From: Spirochaetota bacterium
GTDB taxonomy: Bacteria > Spirochaetota > UBA4802 > JAFGDQ01
DNA: 36,004 nucleotides
NCBI GenBank assembly: GCA_034190085.1
Contig: JAXHTS010000027.1
Location: 1 to 36,004 of the forward strand
Reading direction: 5' to 3'
A model generated the notes under the pieces. That model made no database searches. It saw nothing but the letters and a program-made list of their open reading frames with translations, and was not told the DNA's origin. This document shows, in pieces, positions 1,861-11,247 of this stretch; position 1 is the first letter of the stretch, and each line of letters opens with the position of its first letter. The position numbers and the translations under genes were made by a program.

Positions 1861-1907
1861 ATTTTATTTATATATGCAAAGTAGATATTATTGAAACATG
1901 TAAACGT

Positions 1908-4889
1908 TCACCAACTCTCCCTTTGCAGTCTGGCAATGAGCCACTTTTCAAGCCTTTTATCCAGCTTGCCAACCCATGATTCGATTTTATTTATATCGCC
2001 GCTCATGATTGCCGCTTTTTCTTCATTGGATAGATCATATTCCTTTAATGCCTGACTTGGATTCTCAGAAAGAAGCGCGAAGAAGGCATTGTCCTGAACA
2101 GCCCTGTCAAGAACTGAAAGTACTGCTTTTACAGCAGATACCTTAAATTCCGGTATTTTAGAAACCGGGTCAAAGGCAGGATTGGTCAATATATTTGCGG
2201 GTGATTCTCGCCAGTGAAATGCCATGAATGCCAAGCCTGGCAATGTTTTGTCTGTGATATTTACTTTGGTTTCGATCTTGCCGCGTCCTGAGGTGATTGT
2301 AATAGTATCACCCTCAATAATGCCAAGTTTTGCGGCATCTTCAGGATTGATATCAACAGCTCCATTTGGATGCAGTTTGTCCAGCCTATCAGAACGCCTG
2401 CTCATGCTCCCTGTATGAAAGTGTTCCAAAATACGTCCTGTTGTGAGGATCAGCGGGTAATCCTTTGAGCTTGATTCAGCAGGAGGTTTATATTCGACAG
2501 CATGAAATTTACCCTTGCCGCGGGTAAAGTTATCCCTATGAAGAATTGGGGTTCCTGGATGTTCTATGTCAGTGCATGGCCACTGCAATCCATAGTCATC
2601 AAGCCTGTCATAGCGGATGCCGCCATAAATAGGTGTAACAGCGGCTATCTCATCCATTATGTCCGATGTGTTTTTGTAATCGAAATCGTGCCCCATCCTT
2701 TGGGCGATTAGGCATATAATCTCCCAGTCGGCTTTTGCCTCACCCGGTGGATCGATAGCCTTAGCGAGTTTCTGTACCCTTCTTTCAGTATTTGTAAAAG
2801 TGCCGTCCTTTTCGGCAAATACTGCAGCAGGAAGTATAACATCCGCATAGGTTGAGGTTTCTGTAGGAAAGATATCCTGAACAACGAGAAATTCAAGATT
2901 TGCCAGGCTTTCGCGGGTGTGCTTCATGTCTGGATCCGACATTACCGGATTCTCTCCCATAATGTACATTGCTTTAAGATCGCCTTCAATAGCCCTGTTC
3001 ATCATATCACCCATAGTAAGCCCAATCTCTTTGGGCAAATTATCTGCATTCCAAATGGTTTCAGCCTTTTCCCTGTTTTTATTCTCAGTTACTGCCAGAT
3101 AGCCTGGCAATACATTTGGAAGCGCGCCCATATCACATGCGCCTTGCACATTGTTTTGCCCCCTTAGCGGGCTCAGTCCCGCGCCTTCGCGTCCAATATT
3201 TCCAGTGAGCATTAGGAGGTTAGCGCAGCTCATAACATTATCAGTCCCTGTTGTATGCTGCGTTATACCCATACCGTAGAGAAGACATGCGCTTTTTGCA
3301 TTGGCAAAGAGACGGGCAGCCTCTACTATTTCCGAGGCTGTAATGCCAACTATTTCAACAACCTTTTCCGGAGCATAATTCTTGAGAAGGTTTTCCTTCA
3401 TTTCCTCAAAGTCCTCAGTTCGTTCAGCTATAAATTTTTCGTCATGCAAACCCTCTTTGATAATAACATGCATCATAGCATTGATCAATGCTACATCGCT
3501 TCCAGGTCTGTGGCGCAAGTGAATATCAGCGATCTTTGAGAGTTCAATAGCGCGGGCATCAGCAACAATAAGTTTCTTGCCGTGAAATTTTATGCCCTGG
3601 CGTATTATTCTTCCAATAATGGGGTGACACTCTGTAGTATTGGAGCCGATCACAAACAGCAGATCAGCTTTTTCGAAATCTGTGATGGAATTTGTCATTG
3701 CTCCGCTTCCGAATGATTTGACCAGACCGGCCACAGTCGGAGCGTGTCAAAGACGCGCGCAATGGTCTATGCTGTTGGTTCCGATAACTGTTCGCGCAAA
3801 TTTTTGAAGCAGATAATTCTCCTCGTTAGTGCACTTAGCAGAGCTTAATAGTCCAATACTATCGGAACCGTACTTCCCTTTAATTAAAGATAGCTTTGAT
3901 GCTATTATCTCCAGCGCCTCATCCCATTCAGCTTCGCGGAAATAGTCCTTGATATCATGTTCTTCTCCGCTTATCTCTTTGGCTATGCCTTCTCTTCTGA
4001 TTAGCGGCCTTTTAAGTCTGTCATTATGACTTATATAGTCATATCCGAATCGTCCCTTAACACAGAGTCCTCCCTTATTGACTGGGCTGCTTCTGTCTCC
4101 TTTAACGCTGACTATCTCGTTGTCACGGACTCCAAGATAGAAAGAGCATCCCACACCGCAGTATGGACATACTGTTTTTATTTCACGAATCGGCTGCTGT
4201 TCGTGCCGTGGCACAAGGGCTCCGGTAGGGCACCTGGCAACGCATTCTCCGCAGGATTCGCAAATCGATTCGACAATAGGTTTATTGCCAAAGGCGCTTA
4301 TCTTCGCGTCATATCCCCTAAAAGCGATATCGATAGCTCCGACACAGGTTATCTCCTGGCATACCCTGACGCATTTGCCGCATAGTATGCACTTATTCGG
4401 ATCGATCTCAAAGGCAGGATTGCTCCTGTCAATTGGAAGGATCCGTTCGCTCTTCCTTAATCGATCAAAGCTTTCCTGGTCAATGCCTAAATATTTTGCA
4501 ATATCCTGTAGCTCGCAATTCTGGTTTTTATAGCAGGTAAGACAATTCCCCTGGTGGTTTGCTATTATTAGCTCCATTGTAATTTTACGGGATTGATTAA
4601 CCTTTGGAGTGCTTGTATGTACTATCATATTTTCTGTCGCTTTTGTTGTACAGGAGGTAACAAGCCCGCGCATGCCGTCAATCTCTACAACACATAGACG
4701 GCACGCTCCATAGGGCTCCAGATCTGGATCGTAACAAAGAGTAGGGATATATATCCCAGCGCTTTTTGCAGCTTCCAGCACAGTAACACCCTTCTTTACA
4801 TGCACACTTCTCCCATCAATAACAAGGGTAATAGCGTCTGATATTTCTTCCTCTTTTAGTTGTGGTTTAATTGTGGTTGTTGAACTCAT
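1908..4889 (-). CDS. fdhA: Selenocysteine formate dehydrogenase catalytic subunit, NuoG-like
   Basis: The gene is read through an in-frame TGA at 3747-3749 as Sec381 in the motif DHCARL-U-HAPTVAGL, giving 993 residues. A reading that stops there would split it into two false genes. The enzyme oxidises formate to CO2 (or the reverse) at a Mo/W bis-pterin site with selenocysteine. N-terminal NuoG-type modules carry electrons: [2Fe-2S] at C52/C63/C66/C80, a His-ligated [4Fe-4S] at H112/C116/C119/C125, and two [4Fe-4S] clusters from C167-C177 and C210-C220. The molybdopterin domain begins near residue 235, with cluster ligands C241, C244, C248 and C276. The last 70 residues are an added helical tail that matches the response regulator of the same operon. 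The start at 4889 is chosen because GGAGG sits 7 nt upstream; an upstream ATG at 4946 would overlap the preceding gene. It follows the NuoF-like gene by 10 nt. The selenocysteine call is strong; physiological direction is not shown. Confidence 0.93.
3720..3732 (-). promoter_or_regulatory. Bacterial SECIS-like hairpin after the Sec codon
   Basis: In the mRNA, GGCC-GGUCU-GGUC forms a 4-bp stem with a GGUC-containing loop, 14 nt after the UGA. The E. coli fdhF SECIS also has a GGUCU apical loop at a similar distance, where SelB binds. The element lies inside the coding sequence and encodes part of VAGLV. The selAB/C/D genes must be elsewhere in the genome. Confidence 0.75.
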
Positions 4890-4899
4890 TGTTATCCTC

Positions 4900-7800
4900 C
4901 TATGCTTCCTCAAGGTCACATCTAAGACATCTGTTTGCCTCTTCAATTGCCTGTTTTCTGCTTAGGCCCTTTTCAACAAGGGCAAGTCCTTTAAGCCTTT
5001 TTTTTACTGCTATTTTGTGCATCTCCGGACGATGTTTTTCCTCTTCCTCCTCTGATTCAAATGTTTCCGGTTTTTCTTCAGGGGCAGTGAGCTTCTCTAT
5101 AATTATGCCATCTCCTCCGAGGTATTTATCAATAGAAATTGCAGCCTGTTTGCCTGCTGCAATTGCCTCAATAACCGAAGCCGGTCCTGTAGTCGCGTCG
5201 CCTCCTGCAAAGACTCCCTTTATTTCTGTCTCAAGGGTATATTGATTTGCCTTCAACGTTCCCCATTTGTCTGTGGGAACTCCCAAATTTTCTGGTATTC
5301 TGGTAGTCTGTCCGATAGCCGCTATAATGGTATCGAAATTCTCTTCATACCTGTTTCCTTTTATAGGCTCCGGGCGTCTTCTCCCGCTTGCATCTATCTT
5401 TCCCAACCTCATACGCTGACATTCCATTCGAATATGTCCGTTTTCGCGATATATCTTGTCAGGAGCGACAAGATACTCAATTTCCACGCCCTCTTCAAGC
5501 GCATCATGAATCTCTTCTTCTGCTGCCGGCATCTCCTCTTCAGTGCGTCTATAGAGTATCTTTACATTCTTTGCGCCTATACGGAGGGCTGTGCGCGATG
5601 CGTCTATTGCTGCATTTCCTCCACCGACAACTGCCACTCTACCTTCAAGTTTTATATCCTTTCCCAGACTGACATCGCGAAGCAGGTCAACACAATCGAT
5701 TACGCCTTCTGTATCCTCGCCGTGTACCCTCATCTTAGCTCCGGCGTGGGCGCCTAAGCTTAAGAAAATTGCTTCATATCCCTGTTCAAGCAGCGAATAG
5801 ATATCATCTATTTTTGTATTAGTTTTTATATCCACACCGGAGTTTTTTATTATATCTATTTCGTGATCTAAAATATACTCAGGAAGCCTATATCTTGGAA
5901 TTCCAACACGCAGCATGCCGCCTGTTTTGGGCAGTTCTTCGAAAACAGTCACAGAATGCCCGCAAACCTTTGCAAGATAATAGGCTGCTGTAAGTCCAGC
6001 AGGTCCTGAACCAACAACTGCTACTCGCTTTCCAGAAGGTTCAACAGACTCAGGATTTTCAAATTTCAGTTTTTTTGCATGATCAGCGGCAAAGCGCTTT
6101 AGTTCCTTGATCGCAATCGGTTCATCTATCATTCCCCTGCGGCATTTGGTCTCGCAGGGATGGAAGCATACATAACCGCATACAGATGGGAAGGGCATGC
6201 TTTCCCGGATAACCGCCACGGCCTCATCATACCTTTTCTCCGATATCAACCTTATATAACGCGGAATATCCACGCCTGCTGGACAGGTATGGCTGCATGG
6301 GGCTTTGACCAGTCCCTTACATACCGCAGCTACACAATGTTTTTTTATTATATGAGATTCGTATTCATCTCTGAAGTATCTGATTGTTGAAAGCACAGGG
6401 TTCGGCGATGTCTGACCAAGCCCGCATAGAGAACCTGCTTTAACAGATTCGCTTAATTCAATCAAGAGATCAATATCCTCAATACTACCTCTTCCATTGG
6501 TAATATCCTCAAGGATTTCGAGCAGTTGCTTATTCCCCCAGCGGCAGGGTATGCATTTGCCACAGGACTCAAGCATGGTGAAGGAGAGAAAATATTTTGC
6601 CACATCAACCATGCAGGTATCTTCATCCAGAACTACCATACCTCCGGATCCCATTATCGATCCTGCTTTTGCCAGTGTTTCGTAATCAACAGGGGAGTCA
6701 AGAAAGCTCGCAGGCAGGCATCCCCCAGATGGTCCCCCTGTCTGCACAGCCTTGAATCGCTTGCCATTCAATATTCCGCCTCCAATATCAAAAATGATCA
6801 CTCTCAGGGTTGTTCCCATAGGCACTTCGACAAGTCCGCTGTTTGCGATCTTGCCGGTTAATGCAAAAACAGCAGTACCCGGGCTATCTTTGGTCCCTAT
6901 ATTTGCATACCATTGAGCGCCTTCATTTATAATAACCGGTATGCTGGATAATGTTTTCACATTATTGATATTTGTTGGTTTTCCCCATAATCCTGATTGA
7001 GCAGGGAATGGGGGGCGGGGGCGAGGCATACCCCTCTTGCCTTCAATCGAGGCCATTAGCGATGTCTCCTCTCCACAGACAAAGGCGCCTGCGCCCTCCT
7101 TGATCTTTATGTCAAAATTAAATCCGGAGTTTAATATATTTTCTCCCAAAAATTCGTTTTCATGTGCTTGTTTTAAGGCTATGCCCATTCTTTTAATAGC
7201 AAGGGGATATTCTGCTCTGCAATATACATAGCCATGATTAGCTCCGATTGCATAGGCTGCTATTAGCATTCCTTCGATTATTGTATGAGGATCCCCCTCC
7301 ATTGTGCTCCTATCCATAAATGCTCCAGGGTCACCCTCATCTGCATTGCATATCAGGTATTTTTCGTTCCCAGGAGCATTATAGCAGAATTCCCATTTTT
7401 GCCCTGTGGAAAAACCGGCGCCTCCCCGACCCCTGAGTCCTGATTTTTTTATCTCATCAATTACATCTTTAGGGGACATTTGGGCAAGGACCTTCTTAAT
7501 TGCTTTATAACCGTTATTGGCAATATAGTCTTCTATCTTTTCTGGATTGATATGACCACAGTTTCGTAGGATCAGTCGTTTCTGCTTTTTATAAAAATTC
7601 ATTTCATTATATGTAGGTATTGCCTTGTTTGTTGCCGGATCTCGGTAAAAAAGGCGCTCTAATGGTTTACCATTTTTCAGATGAGAGTGGACAATATCCT
7701 TTGCATCCTCTATCTTAACATGAGCGTAGAATATACCCTCTGGTTCTACAATTACAATAGGTCCCTGTTCACAAAACCCGTGACAACCAGTGAAGTCTAT

Positions 7801-7938
7801 TTTTATAGATTTTAATCCTGCCTTTTCTACCTCCTTTTCAAGCTCCAGCAGTATTTTATCAGATTTTGATGAAGTGCAACCTGTCCCTTGGCAAACAAGA
7901 ACAATATGTTCCCATTTTGGATTAATTTTATCATTCAT
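4900..7938 (-). CDS. NuoF-GltD fusion: NAD(P)/FMN/FAD iron-sulfur electron-transfer subunit
   Basis: This 1012-residue protein has three parts. Residues 1-95 are a thioredoxin-like [2Fe-2S] domain (C16, C21, C52, C56). Residues 110-530 are NuoF/HydB-like, with the FMN/NADH signature GLRGRGGAGFSTG (168-180), CNADEGDPGAF, and the [4Fe-4S] ligands ESCGKCIPC (459/462/465) with C505. Residues 535-1012 resemble the glutamate synthase small subunit and NfnB: cysteine clusters at 535-599, an FAD motif VVGSGPAG (641-648), and a second dinucleotide motif VVGGGNAA (770-777) followed by YRR, typical of NADPH use in this family. It is the electron partner of the formate dehydrogenase. Its start overlaps the nuoE-like stop by 8 nt, indicating translational coupling. 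Two flavins and two nucleotide sites make flavin-based bifurcation or transhydrogenation conceivable, which is inference. Confidence 0.9.
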   Translation of the reverse strand: MNDKINPKWEHIVLVCQGTGCTSSKSDKILLELEKEVEKAGLKSIKIDFTGCHGFCEQGPIVIVEPEGIFYAHVKIEDAKDIVHSHLKNGKPLERLFYRDPATNKAIPTYNEMNFYKKQKRLILRNCGHINPEKIEDYIANNGYKAIKKVLAQMSPKDVIDEIKKSGLRGRGGAGFSTGQKWEFCYNAPGNEKYLICNADEGDPGAFMDRSTMEGDPHTIIEGMLIAAYAIGANHGYVYCRAEYPLAIKRMGIALKQAHENEFLGENILNSGFNFDIKIKEGAGAFVCGEETSLMASIEGKRGMPRPRPPFPAQSGLWGKPTNINNVKTLSSIPVIINEGAQWYANIGTKDSPGTAVFALTGKIANSGLVEVPMGTTLRVIIFDIGGGILNGKRFKAVQTGGPSGGCLPASFLDSPVDYETLAKAGSIMGSGGMVVLDEDTCMVDVAKYFLSFTMLESCGKCIPCRWGNKQLLEILEDITNGRGSIEDIDLLIELSESVKAGSLCGLGQTSPNPVLSTIRYFRDEYESHIIKKHCVAAVCKGLVKAPCSHTCPAGVDIPRYIRLISEKRYDEAVAVIRESMPFPSVCGYVCFHPCETKCRRGMIDEPIAIKELKRFAADHAKKLKFENPESVEPSGKRVAVVGSGPAGLTAAYYLAKVCGHSVTVFEELPKTGGMLRVGIPRYRLPEYILDHEIDIIKNSGVDIKTNTKIDDIYSLLEQGYEAIFLSLGAHAGAKMRVHGEDTEGVIDCVDLLRDVSLGKDIKLEGRVAVVGGGNAAIDASRTALRIGAKNVKILYRRTEEEMPAAEEEIHDALEEGVEIEYLVAPDKIYRENGHIRMECQRMRLGKIDASGRRRPEPIKGNRYEENFDTIIAAIGQTTRIPENLGVPTDKWGTLKANQYTLETEIKGVFAGGDATTGPASVIEAIAAGKQAAISIDKYLGGDGIIIEKLTAPEEKPETFESEEEEEKHRPEMHKIAVKKRLKGLALVEKGLSRKQAIEEANRCLRCDLEEA

Positions 7939-8458
7939 TTTGTACTCCTTGGCCCGTACTTTTTAATATCTCAGTGACCTTTTTGGGTGTCATCTGGCCG
8001 TATGTATCGTCGTTTATAACCATTGTGGGAGCTAAAGAACACGCTCCAATGCAGGCCACAGTCTCCAGGTAGTATTCAAGGTCAGGGGTGCTTTCACCCG
8101 GGCTTATGCCAAGCTGTTTCTTTACTTCTCTCAAGATTCTAGCTCCTCCACGCACGTGACACGCAGTGCCTCGACAGACTTTTATAATATTTCGGCCTGT
8201 TGGAACGAGTTTAAAGAATGCATAAAATGTAGCGACACCAAATACAGTACTTTCAGGGATGCCCATATACTGAGCTATTTTCTTCATTGCCAGTTCCGGC
8301 AAATAGCCAAAATTTTGCTGAACTTGTTGTAATACAGGTATCAAATTACTTTTATTGTTTTCAAAGGATTCTAATATCTGAAGGACCAGTTCCTCAATTT
8401 TCCATTCATCTTCTTCTTGTGTTGTGTTGTTTTCTGCCTTTAGCAGGGATTTGTTCAT
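7931..8458 (-). CDS. NuoE-like [2Fe-2S] subunit
   Basis: This 175-residue protein belongs to the NuoE/HydC thioredoxin-like ferredoxin family. The N-terminal helical part (about residues 20-70) carries the family signature GYLPELAMKKIAQYMGIP and GVATFYAFF. The cluster ligands are C95, C100, C136 and C140, in CRGTAC and CIGAC. It is the usual partner of NuoF-type subunits, passing electrons between FMN and other clusters in soluble NAD-linked hydrogenases and formate dehydrogenases. The Shine-Dalgarno GGAGGG lies about 11 nt upstream of the start. It overlaps the following gene by 8 nt and is 144 nt behind the response regulator, with an inverted repeat in that gap. The paralogue hydrogenase subunit HydC cannot be told apart by sequence alone; neighbouring fdhA points to a formate dehydrogenase complex. 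Confidence 0.9.
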   Translation of the reverse strand: MNKSLLKAENNTTQEEDEWKIEELVLQILESFENNKSNLIPVLQQVQQNFGYLPELAMKKIAQYMGIPESTVFGVATFYAFFKLVPTGRNIIKVCRGTACHVRGGARILREVKKQLGISPGESTPDLEYYLETVACIGACSLAPTMVINDDTYGQMTPKKVTEILKSTGQGVQNE

Positions 8459-8602: not shown

Positions 8603-9268
8603 TTACCATCTTTCCACCTGGAGCCGATGTTCCAAATATTCAGACTGTTTTGTTGTCAGTTCTCCTACATTTTTTTCTATCCAATTGATATCTCCTGATA
8701 CAATAGCAGCCTTAGCAGCATTACTTAAGCTGTATTCCTCAAGGGCTTTAGATCCATTTTCCATCAATTCGGTCCAAAAGTTCTTGTCATCAGCCGTCCT
8801 GTTTAATACTCTGAGAACCTGTTCTTTCTCGATAATCCTTTTATCAGTTGTATCCATCTTATCTGTCTTGGTGTTTCCGGTAAACTTTCTAATTGCTTTT
8901 TTAACAGCTCCTACAATTTCATCCGGATTAAAAGGTTTGGGGATATAATCGTCAGCTCCAGATTTCATCGCTTCTACAGCAGTTGGCACAGATGCATATC
9001 CTGTGATCATTATTACTGGTACCTCAGGTCGGTATTCTTTGAGTCGCTTTATAAGATCAATTCCATTCATATCCGGCATCTTCAAATCAACCAAAACTGC
9101 ATCATACATCTCTTTTGTTGCCCTTCTTAATCCATCCTTCCCTGTATAAGCTGTTTCCATTATGTAGCCTTCATCCTCAAAAATTCTTTGACATCCTCTG
9201 CAGAGATTTACTTCATCGTCTACAATTAAGAGTCTTTCATGCCTTTCATCTAAAATGTTATGTTCCAT
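8603..9268 (-). CDS. Response regulator with receiver domain and FdhA-like C-terminal tail
   Basis: This is a 221-residue protein. Residues 12-128 are a complete CheY-like receiver: acidic pair D17/D18, phospho-acceptor D61 (VDLKMPDMNG), T89 (ITGYAS) and K111 (PKPF). After a charged linker (129-150) there is no winged helix, AAA+ or HTH module. Instead, residues 152-221 match the last 70 residues of the formate dehydrogenase catalytic subunit at 37 of 70 positions, ending in the same way (RLQ-x-E-x-W). It is the first gene of the operon, preceded by AGGAGG and a sigma-54 type promoter. A histidine kinase is not present in the window. The receiver annotation is secure. The role is not: it may regulate the enzyme or a complex by docking rather than by binding DNA. 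Confidence 0.9.
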   Translation of the reverse strand: MEHNILDERHERLLIVDDEVNLCRGCQRIFEDEGYIMETAYTGKDGLRRATKEMYDAVLVDLKMPDMNGIDLIKRLKEYRPEVPVIMITGYASVPTAVEAMKSGADDYIPKPFNPDEIVGAVKKAIRKFTGNTKTDKMDTTDKRIIEKEQVLRVLNRTADDKNFWTELMENGSKALEEYSLSNAAKAAIVSGDINWIEKNVGELTTKQSEYLEHRLQVERW

Positions 9269-9311
9269 TTTCTTGCCTCCTTTTTTATTTTGTTTTCACT
9301 AATATATAAAA

Positions 9312-9326
9312 GCAATACTCATGCCA
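9312..9326 (-). promoter_or_regulatory. Sigma-54 (-24/-12) promoter of the fdh operon
   Basis: On the minus strand the sequence is TGGCATGAGTATTGC, followed by TTT. The consensus is TGGCAC-N5-TTGC; only one core base differs and the GG-to-GC spacing is exact. Transcription would begin near 9300, leaving about 30 nt of leader before the regulator ATG at 9268. This implies activation by an enhancer-binding protein, not seen here. Confidence 0.7.
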
Positions 9327-9518
9327 GATGATGTTAATGTTGAAAAATATTGTGGATTATTGAATGAAATGATAAATATTTATATAATATAGCCTTATTC
9401 CTGAGGGTATATTTGATGAGATTTTGATCTATAAATGGTTATAATCTCATATAAATCGATATAATCAGCTTTATTATCTTTTTGATCAATTTTTAAAGGC
9501 GCATCATTCACTGCTATA

Positions 9519-9645
9519 TAAAGTGTATTTATATAACGAAAGATACTTCTTTAAATATATTAAGAAAAATTAAAGTGTTATTTGAGATTTAAAGGGGATA
9601 TTTTATATTTTTAATATTAAAGTGTATAATAATTATATACACTTT
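9519..9645. repeat. AAAGTGTAT repeats and 10-bp palindrome
   Basis: AAAGTGTATA (9619-9628) and TATACACTTT (9636-9645) are perfect inverted arms with 7 nt between them. A further AAAGTGTATT occurs at 9520-9529, and a weaker AAAGTGTTAT lies near 9572. The sites are about 200-320 bp upstream of the sigma-54 promoter, where an enhancer-binding protein or another regulator could bind. No regulator is known for them. Confidence 0.35.
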
Positions 9646-9661
9646 GCAGGAATTTTTTTGT

Positions 9662-9823
9662 ATGGTCAAAATTGATTGTATGCGCAATGAGTCTTCAGGT
9701 GAAGAAGAAAACTTGATGCTCTATTTTGGAAAGATTATTTCGTGTGCAAATTATTTTTTAGGGCATTTTTTGATAAAGATGTTATTAATTTTTCAGCATT
9801 ATATTATTATGTCCCTTAAATAA
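9662..9823 (+). CDS. Possible 53-residue protein
   Basis: This ORF begins MVKIDCMRNESSGEEEN. Its C-terminal half is hydrophobic and aromatic. A weak AGGA lies about 11 nt upstream. It is in an AT-rich region with no recognisable homologue, followed 21 nt later by another small ORF. It may be chance. Confidence 0.2.
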   Translation: MVKIDCMRNESSGEEENLMLYFGKIISCANYFLGHFLIKMLLIFQHYIIMSLK

Positions 9824-9844
9824 ATTATACAGAGAGGGATATTC

Positions 9845-10096
9845 ATGGAACAAGCAAAAGAAAAACGATTACCAGAAGAGATAAAGAATGAACTATTAGA
9901 TTTAATGGAAAAAGAGATTGAATCGATCACAATAACAAATAATGGTAAGCCATGCACATTTTATGAGCTTGAAGGCAAACTATTCGATATTGGAAAATGA
10001 TATAAACAAAAGATGTTAGAGAAGATTGCCGAACTTGAAGCTGAAGAATATGGTAAAAAAAATATGTCCCTAGTGTCAGGGAAGGTTAAGAAATAA
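9845..10096 (+). pseudogene. Small gene interrupted by an in-frame TGA
   Basis: A 51-codon ORF (MEQAKEKRLPEEIKNELLDL at the start, ending FDIGK) has a good GAGAGGGAT ribosome site. After TGA at 9998-10000 the same frame continues for 31 codons (YKQKMLEKIAELEAEEYGKK and onward) to TAA at 10094-10096. The charged helical composition continues across the stop, so this looks like one 80-codon reading frame with a nonsense change. It could be the N-terminal remnant of a transposase of the ISKra4 type, but that resemblance is from memory and weak. No SECIS-like hairpin is evident, so selenocysteine is unlikely. Confidence 0.35.
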
Positions 10097-10292
10097 GGGT
10101 AAAGTCAAAAGAATAATTTTAAGTACTACTGGAGAAGTAATTAAGGCTTTCTGAAAAAGTAAATATTTAGACTATACAGCGAACACTCCACATTCATAGC
10201 GTCTCATGTGACGCAGTAAAATTTGGGTAAAAAGAAGCCTTAGTTTCCTTTCGGATTGTAATAGTTAAGATAATATCTGACATTCCGATAAT

Positions 10293-10336
10293 AAAACTGA
10301 CACTTATTCCCCCCGGGAGGAATAAGTGTCAGTTTT
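10293..10336. repeat. 44-nt near-perfect palindrome at the IS edge
   Basis: The 18-bp arms AAAACTGACACTTATTCC (10293-10310) and GGAATAAGTGTCAGTTTT (10319-10336) are perfect, around an 8-nt GC-rich centre. It sits 15 nt before the transposase remnant. It may be the IS left end fused to an inverted copy, or a strong hairpin that blocks read-through transcription into the element. No matching right end is found. Confidence 0.6.
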
Positions 10337-10350
10337 CGGCAAATACAATT

Positions 10351-11223
10351 ATGAGGAGTGTCTCTGTGAACCAAGAAGACAAAATAATCAAAACAAAAGT
10401 TGGTCTAATAAGACTTGCAAGAGAATTGGGTAATGTATCATAAGCATGTAAAGTTTTTGGATATTCAAGAGATAGTTTCTACAGATTTAAAGAACTTTAT
10501 GAGCATGGAGGTGAAGAAGCTTTAAAAGAGATTAGCAGAAAGAAGCCTAATATTAAAAATAGGATCAATCCTGTAAATGAAGATGCAGTTTTAAAGATGG
10601 TCATTGATCGCCCGGCTTATGGCCAAATGCGGGTATCTAACGAGTTGAAGAAAGATGGTTTATTCGTTTCCCCAGGTGGAGTAAGGAATATTTGGCAAAG
10701 ACATGATCTGGAGTCATTGGTTGCTTTTGCTAAACTCTACACTACTAAAACTGCTATTACAGCTACGGATATTTTAAACGATAGAGTGTTGCCATTTTTT
10801 GAGGAGCAAGAGATTCCCCTTTTGAGGATATTAACTGATAGAGAGACTGAGTATTGTGGGAAAAAGGAAACCCATGGAGATCAGTTGTATTTAGCAGTTG
10901 AAAATATTGATCATTCTAAAACAAAAGCCAGAAGCCCTTAATCGAATGATATTTGTGAAGGACTTTATAAGATTATGTTGAATGAATTTTATCGCGTTGC
11001 TTTTAGAAAAAAGATTTACAGAGATTTAGAGGAGTTACAAGAAGATCTTGACGATTGGATAAAAGAATATAATGATGAGAGGCCACATACTGGCAAGTAT
11101 TGTTACGGAAAAACGCCCATGCAAACATTTCTAGATTCGAAGAATATTGCTCTAGAAAAAATGTTGGATAATAAATTACAGACAATAAAAGAAAACGAGA
11201 GTGTCAGATTAAATGCTGGCTAG
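10351..11223 (+). pseudogene. Degraded IS481-family transposase
   Basis: All pieces lie in one frame. An N-terminal HTH (VGLIRLARELGN, then ACKVFGYSRDSFYRFKELYE) is broken by TAA at 10441-10443. Next come RPAYGQMRVSNELKKDGLFV and RNIWQRHDLE. The frame then jumps straight to LVAFAKLYTTKTAITATDIL, so roughly 80-100 codons found in intact relatives, including the first catalytic Asp region, are deleted. The second Asp (LTDRETEYCG) and the Glu region (SNDICEGLYKI) remain, separated by TAA at 10939-10941. The C-terminus (YNDERPHTGKYCYGKTPMQT) is typical of this family. It is clearly inactive. It ends 25 nt from the stop of a convergent gene that is also broken. Confidence 0.85.
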
Positions 11224-11247
11224 TACAGATTTTCCTTTATATTATAA

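Follow-up and report, generated by a model that had tools for sequence, protein, structure and literature searches.

A probable sigma-54 promoter precedes a selenocysteine formate dehydrogenase operon whose response regulator and catalytic subunit share a C-terminal domain

Most response regulators act on DNA. The stretch of DNA analysed here (the window: 36,004 nt, a whole contig of a Spirochaetota genome) carries a formate dehydrogenase operon headed by a response regulator gene for which this is questionable. The original prediction held that a sigma-54 promoter drives the operon although the regulator lacks a sigma-54 activation domain, so that an activator encoded elsewhere has to open the promoter and the local regulator is left free for another task. 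Hence, we asked whether this promoter is real, which activator may serve it and what the regulator may do.

The operon is located on the minus strand and reads, from the promoter onward, response regulator (8603..9268), NuoE-like 2Fe-2S subunit of the thioredoxin type (7931..8458), a fusion of NuoF and GltD (4900..7938; FMN, Fe-S, pyridine nucleotide oxidoreductase) and the catalytic subunit FdhA (1908..4889, start 4889 set by eye) whose frame contains a TGA (3749-3747) taken to encode selenocysteine. Using domain and family profiles, the NuoE subunit reached 158.8 bits (cutoff 141) and the FdhA part after the TGA 679.6 bits for TIGR01591 (cutoff 666.25); the NuoF match of 505 stayed below its own cutoff of 558.65. 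The combination that marks an NAD-type selenocysteine formate dehydrogenase, an FdhA equivalog with NuoE/NuoF partners, was present. The genome encodes a tRNA-Sec (70.1 bits, over the gathering score). As the SECIS hairpin after the TGA gave a z of just -1.7, the selenocysteine reading rests on frame, family and tRNA-Sec. No gene for a formate channel was matched in this genome. NuoF and the GltD-like flavoprotein, one protein at window 4900-7938, were found side by side in a Syntrophaceae record (L042; 80% and 68% identity). Over 121 nt, the end of FdhA (window 1905-2025) matches exactly the first bases of contig C7 of the same genome (L014:1-121 = G000:C7:1-121), which then diverges. A second operon copy, suggested by this contig opening with the FdhA end, was discarded, as neither the operon nor its 5' side had a near-identical match elsewhere. 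The C7 overlap is an assembly branch, and the sequence downstream of the operon is uncertain.

The predicted promoter had been given as a 15-mer, which lies at 9326..9312 on the minus strand; adding base 9311 yields TGGCATGAGTATTGCT (9311..9326), a site of the sigma-54 -24/-12 type judged by sequence match, strict-pattern counts and conservation in relatives. Its GG-to-GC distance is the canonical one, exactly as claimed. With the C at 9312 taken as -12, transcription is predicted to start 12 nt further on, at about 9300 (9299..9301, minus strand). The ATG at 9268 follows 32 nt later, close to the distance of about 30 nt originally proposed. A putative ribosome-binding site, GGAGG (9276..9280, minus strand), was read upstream of this ATG. 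The strict pattern TGGCAYNNNNNTTGCW matched once in the window compared to 0.12 matches expected, and at least one match was found in 11 of 100 shuffles. Permitting one mismatch, 4 matches were obtained versus 3.2 expected, which makes a loose match uninformative. Genome-wide (4.27 Mb) 14 strict matches were counted versus 1 for the pattern read backward, a clear enrichment. Since 8 of the 13 other strict matches fall inside open frames of at least 291 codons, the consensus alone is weak evidence. The decisive support for the predicted sigma-54 promoter is its conservation among relatives in which the regulator gene heads the operon.

These relatives were traced via the regulator tail described below, using a two-row profile (E up to 0.001). 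By this measure a search of 45 further genomes of the order gave no match to the tail, whereas 392 genomes of the phylum yielded 4 with it besides its own, including one weak match (5e-4). A profile scan of genome contigs yielded 63 loci with the tail, by record title mostly Desulfobacteraceae, Desulfobacterales or Deltaproteobacteria; other titles were Spirochaetota, Poribacteria, Abyssobacteria, Planctomycetota, Tharpella and Chloroflexi. Genes for a receiver with this tail (REC-tail genes) occur in two main settings. In type A, the gene of an NtrC-type activator, in most cases accompanied by that of a kinase, is divergent or upstream, then comes the REC-tail gene, in many loci followed by NuoE-NuoF-(GltD)-FdhA or by FdhA and a protein that we read as HdrA-like (L035). 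Some type A contigs end, or have no formate dehydrogenase, within the stretch examined. Type B shows the order kinase, REC, REC-tail and REC fused to a formate/nitrite channel. Such receiver-channel fusions adjoin the REC-tail gene at L022:9216-10502, L020:3255-4517 and L021:7961-9232, and the fused channel is perhaps phospho-controlled.

For 62 REC-tail genes with a settable start, window included, 300 nt upstream (less at contig ends) were scored with a hand-written sigma-54 weight matrix. A score of at least 12 was taken as a strong site; the 99th percentile of 1240 shuffled upstream regions was 12.0. Among REC-tail genes that neighbour an activator or NuoE gene but are not close to a channel gene, 21 of 30 had a strong site, compared to 1 of 16 near a formate-channel gene and 0 of 16 of the remaining ones. 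Two of the nine misses are second REC-tail genes further down the operon (L032, L039). For two more, L044 and L060, the chosen start fell within a longer open frame with two receivers, and sites scoring 13.9 (78 nt ahead of the frame's chosen start, L044) and 15.1 (ahead of the first receiver, L060) were detected. Degenerate sites at 104-121 nt were found in L036, L037 and L041, while the heads of L083 and L084 had neither a site nor an activator neighbour. Without L032, L039, L044 and L060, 26 operon heads were left, the window among them. A strong -24/-12 site within 300 nt upstream was found in 21 of these 26 and a degenerate one in 3 further heads, versus 13 of 554 control genes scoring at least 12. 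These control positives include the REC-tail genes of L053 and L044 and the head kinases of the channel-type clusters L072, L074 and L080. The sigma-54-like sites TGGCATGTGGCTTGCT lie upstream of the kinase gene in the latter three clusters, which may also be sigma-54 controlled. Single open frames with two receivers and a tail were observed at L044:3448-4590 and L060 ~9100-10222. Taken together, the proposal of a sigma-54 promoter for the formate dehydrogenase operon withstood this comparison; from the sequences, the promoter is with high probability real, and we infer that the element at 9311-9326 is used in the cell.

A sigma-54 promoter calls for rpoN and an activator. One rpoN match was found in the genome of the window (C83:57950-58426). 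Six full-length Sigma54_activat (PF00158) matches were detected; four further ones were weak (E 4.5e-6 to 2.8e-4) and are probably other AAA proteins. The activators lie elsewhere in the genome, as originally expected, and none was found on the operon's own 36 kb contig. Of the 26 operon heads, 19 have an activator gene at a distance of no more than 4.5 kb, and for 17 of them the score is at least 12; the seven heads lacking a nearby one are L030, L037 and L062 (contig ends), L031, L083, L084 and the window. The paradox seen in a sigma-54 promoter combined with a non-activating regulator did not survive: in the 19 heads the gene for the same regulator adjoins that of an NtrC-type activator, and usually a kinase gene is there too. 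The regulator is therefore a second response regulator of the system, and the supposed paradox is a division of labour.

For the window, the equivalent of this neighbouring pair appears to be encoded on contig C55. In a tree of 32 activators (the partial L052 sequence was left out) the C55 activator groups with 21 REC-tail-adjacent activators and the L081 activator (support 100/97). It is the sister of the L081 protein (98/93), and C38_16840 forms the next branch outside this group. In BLAST searches with 27 locus activators, the best match in this genome was C55 for 20 and C38_16840 for 7, with small margins. The C55 protein consists of receiver, AAA+ and Fis-type helix-turn-helix domains, its sigma-54 contact loop GSFTGA is a one-residue variant of GAFTGA, and its recognition helix GMQRTNFQALMKK resembles GMQRSNFSALMKK of several REC-tail-adjacent activators. 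The kinase gene directly upstream encodes an sCache_3 sensor, HAMP, HisKA and HATPase; the kinase matches over its full length those beside the REC-tail clusters in L078 (43%) and L081 (39%).

The upstream DNA was inspected as well. Upstream of the sigma-54 sites the dyad GTATA-N6-TATAC was found at no more than one mismatch in 22 of 26 loci (16 exact), and in 19 of those 22 in two copies, usually at distances of about 113 and 182 nt from the promoter. In shuffled sequences the mean was 0.5 and the maximum 2 of 26, and the dyad was found in 0 of 36 other REC-tail upstream regions. The four loci without it are L030 (only 173 nt there), L062, L081 and the window, where the N6 dyad pair of the relatives was not found upstream of the promoter. 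The candidate enhancer of the window is an inverted repeat with perfect 10-bp arms, AAAGTGTATA-N7-TATACACTTT (TGTA-N11-TACA), at 9619..9645, about 315 nt upstream of the promoter. Its spacer is one base longer than that of the relatives' dyads, and it lies farther from the promoter. The TGTA-N11-TACA spacing is common to this repeat and the L081 dyad, two cases only, found by looking. As a genome-wide marker the N6/N7 dyad was rejected, since it was not enriched in this genome (17 places versus 38 in the reversed control).

Further upstream of the operon, insertion-sequence-like repeats were recognized by repeat comparison (9730..11233); they have many copies in the genome, several of them at contig ends. 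One such repeat starts some 100 nt beyond the C55 activator gene; a further copy, 90% over 512 nt and in the same relative orientation, is located upstream of the window operon. These copies near both the C55 pair and the operon suggest that an ancestral neighbourhood may have been split at the repeat. A second system of the same type is apparently present at L091:15032-18874 (G000:C38), where genes for a kinase and an NtrC-type activator come first, then two exact GTATA-N6-TATAC dyads, a sigma-54 site and further genes.

The regulator itself comprises 221 aa. Its receiver was matched by PF00072 (E 9.8e-34), with the acidic pair (D18 included), D61, T89 and K111 present and the phospho-site residues invariant across 49 sequences. 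At E 0.001, no Pfam family beyond the receiver was found, hence no AAA+ domain (PF00158), and the original statement on the missing activation domain was correct. The helical tail of the regulator (8606..8827, minus strand) was characterized by sequence comparison, profile and fold. With the C-terminal tail of FdhA (1911..2135, minus strand; sequence comparison and tree) it shares 53% identity over 68 residues, which bears out the earlier idea of a common tail in regulator and enzyme. The NCBIfam model NF038399 (Os1348, NHLP clan) matched 33 of 39 tails at E up to 1 (best 1.6e-14), whereby the tails of the window stayed below the curated cutoffs: 19.9 bits for the regulator versus 40 for NF038399, and 26.2 bits for FdhA versus 48 for PF14407. 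A tail profile searched against the PDB found the LigA domains of SonA RiPP precursors at E 0.002-0.004. According to their titles, these SonA entries show a LigA-type domain in complex with the methyltransferase SonM. As a fold search with the whole regulator gave receiver-containing proteins (best 50 shown), the tail was modelled alone. The nearest folds to this model were the LigA-like part of DesB (Z 8.2), SonA (Z 6.7) and Os1348 (Z 4.1), and Foldseek found no match at E 0.001 or better. With a Z of about 8 or less for a helical domain, a LigA-type fold of the modelled tail is only suggestive.

In the tail tree, regulator and FdhA tails form separate groups (dividing branch 84/74), and the formate dehydrogenase tails group with one free tail at 100/97. 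Recent copying of the tail between regulator and FdhA within the operon is disfavoured by this separation, and both fusions look old for the same reason. A free tail protein lacking a receiver heads a formate dehydrogenase operon before NuoE in a Dehalococcoidia record (L082:2589-2921), whose FdhA tail is 80% identical to that of the window. The tail is not universal among related FdhA proteins: those of L048, L052 and L062, for example, showed none at the threshold used. The end of a response regulator at L053:9335-10225 looks by eye like two tandem tail domains. A tail-like protein without receiver was seen at L077:9085-9462 (contig titled Kuenenia), with no formate dehydrogenase match in the stretch examined.

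We consider the following overall explanation quite probable, although the lack of the N6 dyad pair and of an activator gene on the window's contig, the closely similar C38_16840, the GSFTGA variant in the C55 loop and the two operon heads without a site (L083, L084) count against it. RNA polymerase with sigma-54 would be held closed at the promoter until a phosphorylated NtrC-type activator, bound further upstream, opens it. In most relatives this activator is presumably the one encoded next door, usually together with a sensor kinase; in the genome of the window the C55 pair of sCache_3 kinase and receiver-AAA+-Fis activator would act in trans. The operon's own response regulator would be a second one, which probably receives its phosphate from that kinase or from a relative of it. 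As output it would use its small helical LigA/Os1348-like domain, of the kind that also ends FdhA; the most likely target is thus the enzyme itself or a partner recognizing this domain. Here, the C55 protein as activator and the phosphorylation of the regulator are what we infer from sequence relationships. Judged from domain make-up and neighbours, the regulator probably works on protein, not DNA, and the simplest reading of the tail would be a recognition or docking module through which the phospho-switch reaches either the enzyme or a shared partner. In a more specific version, which we hold only tentatively, one kinase would induce the operon via the sigma-54 activator and, via the receiver-tail protein, tune the finished enzyme (in relatives also the formate channel fused to a receiver) up or down, either through competition for a common partner or by bridging it.

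Several other explanations were weighed against these steps. One is that the site matches the consensus by chance or is a dead copy, and that an ordinary sigma-70 promoter, or transcription coming from upstream, serves the operon. In its favour, most of the other strict matches in the genome lie within long open frames, the AT-rich upstream region holds 8 sigma-70-like matches on both strands versus 4.5 expected, and the promoter could be a relic if the operon was acquired and separated from its activator. Against it, most operon-head relatives have a like element in a like position, at a rate far above that of the control genes, the consensus is kept near-perfect in this genome, the three sigma-70-like matches on the minus strand score 9 of 12, and both rpoN and a matching activator are encoded in the genome. 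We regard this explanation as very improbable. The promoter might also be real but driven by another activator of the same genome, most likely C38_16840 in place of the C55 pair. This protein was the better match for the minority of locus activators mentioned above, if by small margins, and since two exact dyads stand ahead of a sigma-54 site that follows its own gene closely (C38:18385), it may read the GTATA-N6-TATAC type. On the other hand, an adjacent candidate target is thereby already at hand for it, the tree places C55 inside the well-supported group and C38_16840 outside, and the window repeat has the N11 spacing of L081, whose activator is the sister of C55, a coincidence of two cases only. 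An activator other than C55 is rather unlikely; judged from the sequences, the C55 protein, acting in trans, is the better candidate of the two and fairly likely the activator.

Two further alternatives concern the regulator. The REC-tail protein could be a phosphate sink or connector competing with the activator for the kinase, the tail serving only dimerisation or stability. An intact receiver and the two to four receiver genes in a row in many REC-tail clusters speak for such a role. A plain receiver would suffice for it, however, and the tail has been kept in regulators from genomes titled as at least six phyla. A link of the tail to the enzyme is also given by its occurrence at the FdhA C-terminus and, in L082, as a free protein encoded before NuoE, and we rate a sink as possible but unlikely. 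Less likely still is a role in transcription, in which the tail would be an unrecognized DNA-binding or activator-binding domain tuning the sigma-54 promoter. The regulator gene does stand first in the operon, a common place for an autoregulator, but the Pfam matches include no helix-turn-helix family, the closest folds are the LigA, SonA and Os1348 domains, and the enzyme carries the same domain. Action of the regulator on protein remains our preferred reading.

If this is true, the handling of formate would be under direct phospho-control, and formate is a central currency in both syntrophy and CO2 reduction. In genomes labelled as several phyla, a sigma-54 activator would be paired with another response regulator that has its output domain in common with formate dehydrogenase, and relatives fuse a receiver onto a formate channel. 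Even without phospho-control, the signature of promoter, dyad pair, kinase and activator gives a clue to what an uncharacterised group of activators does.

Sigma-54 promoters serve formate metabolism in the Escherichia coli FhlA/formate hydrogenlyase regulon, where FhlA is a one-component activator binding formate; the presumed activator of the window operon is in contrast a receiver-type partner of a kinase. The C55 protein resembles two-component activators of the NtrC type in its receiver, AAA+ and Fis-type helix-turn-helix domains; a difference is that in this genome its gene and the presumed target lie apart. A selenocysteine formate dehydrogenase under sigma-54 control is already known from the fdnG operon of Geobacter sulfurreducens (GSU0777-0781), whose RpoN promoter was validated by primer extension (PMC2725144). 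That operon is alike in enzyme type and promoter but differs in its iron-sulfur and b-type cytochrome subunits, and the excerpts consulted name no response regulator gene in it (PMC2725144). For Desulfovibrio vulgaris, the sigma-54 regulome is reported to include pyruvate formate-lyase regulators (PMC4641369). The FDH-Hdr loci of Desulfobacterium autotrophicum have formate dehydrogenase genes beside hdr, and a figure legend gives response regulator, kinase and CheY-like genes with them, as in type A loci such as L035; the excerpts consulted mention neither the tail domain nor a sigma-54 site (PMC2702500). In searches of the open-access literature, no description of a REC-tail module beside formate dehydrogenase, of its dyads or of the shared domain was found. 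The interesting remainder is the domain common to regulator and enzyme. It is similar in sequence, and its model suggestively in fold, to the domain of LigA, of Os1348 of the NHLP clan and of the SonA RiPP precursors; these are fused to a dioxygenase or a peptide, while the tail described here is fused to a receiver and to FdhA.
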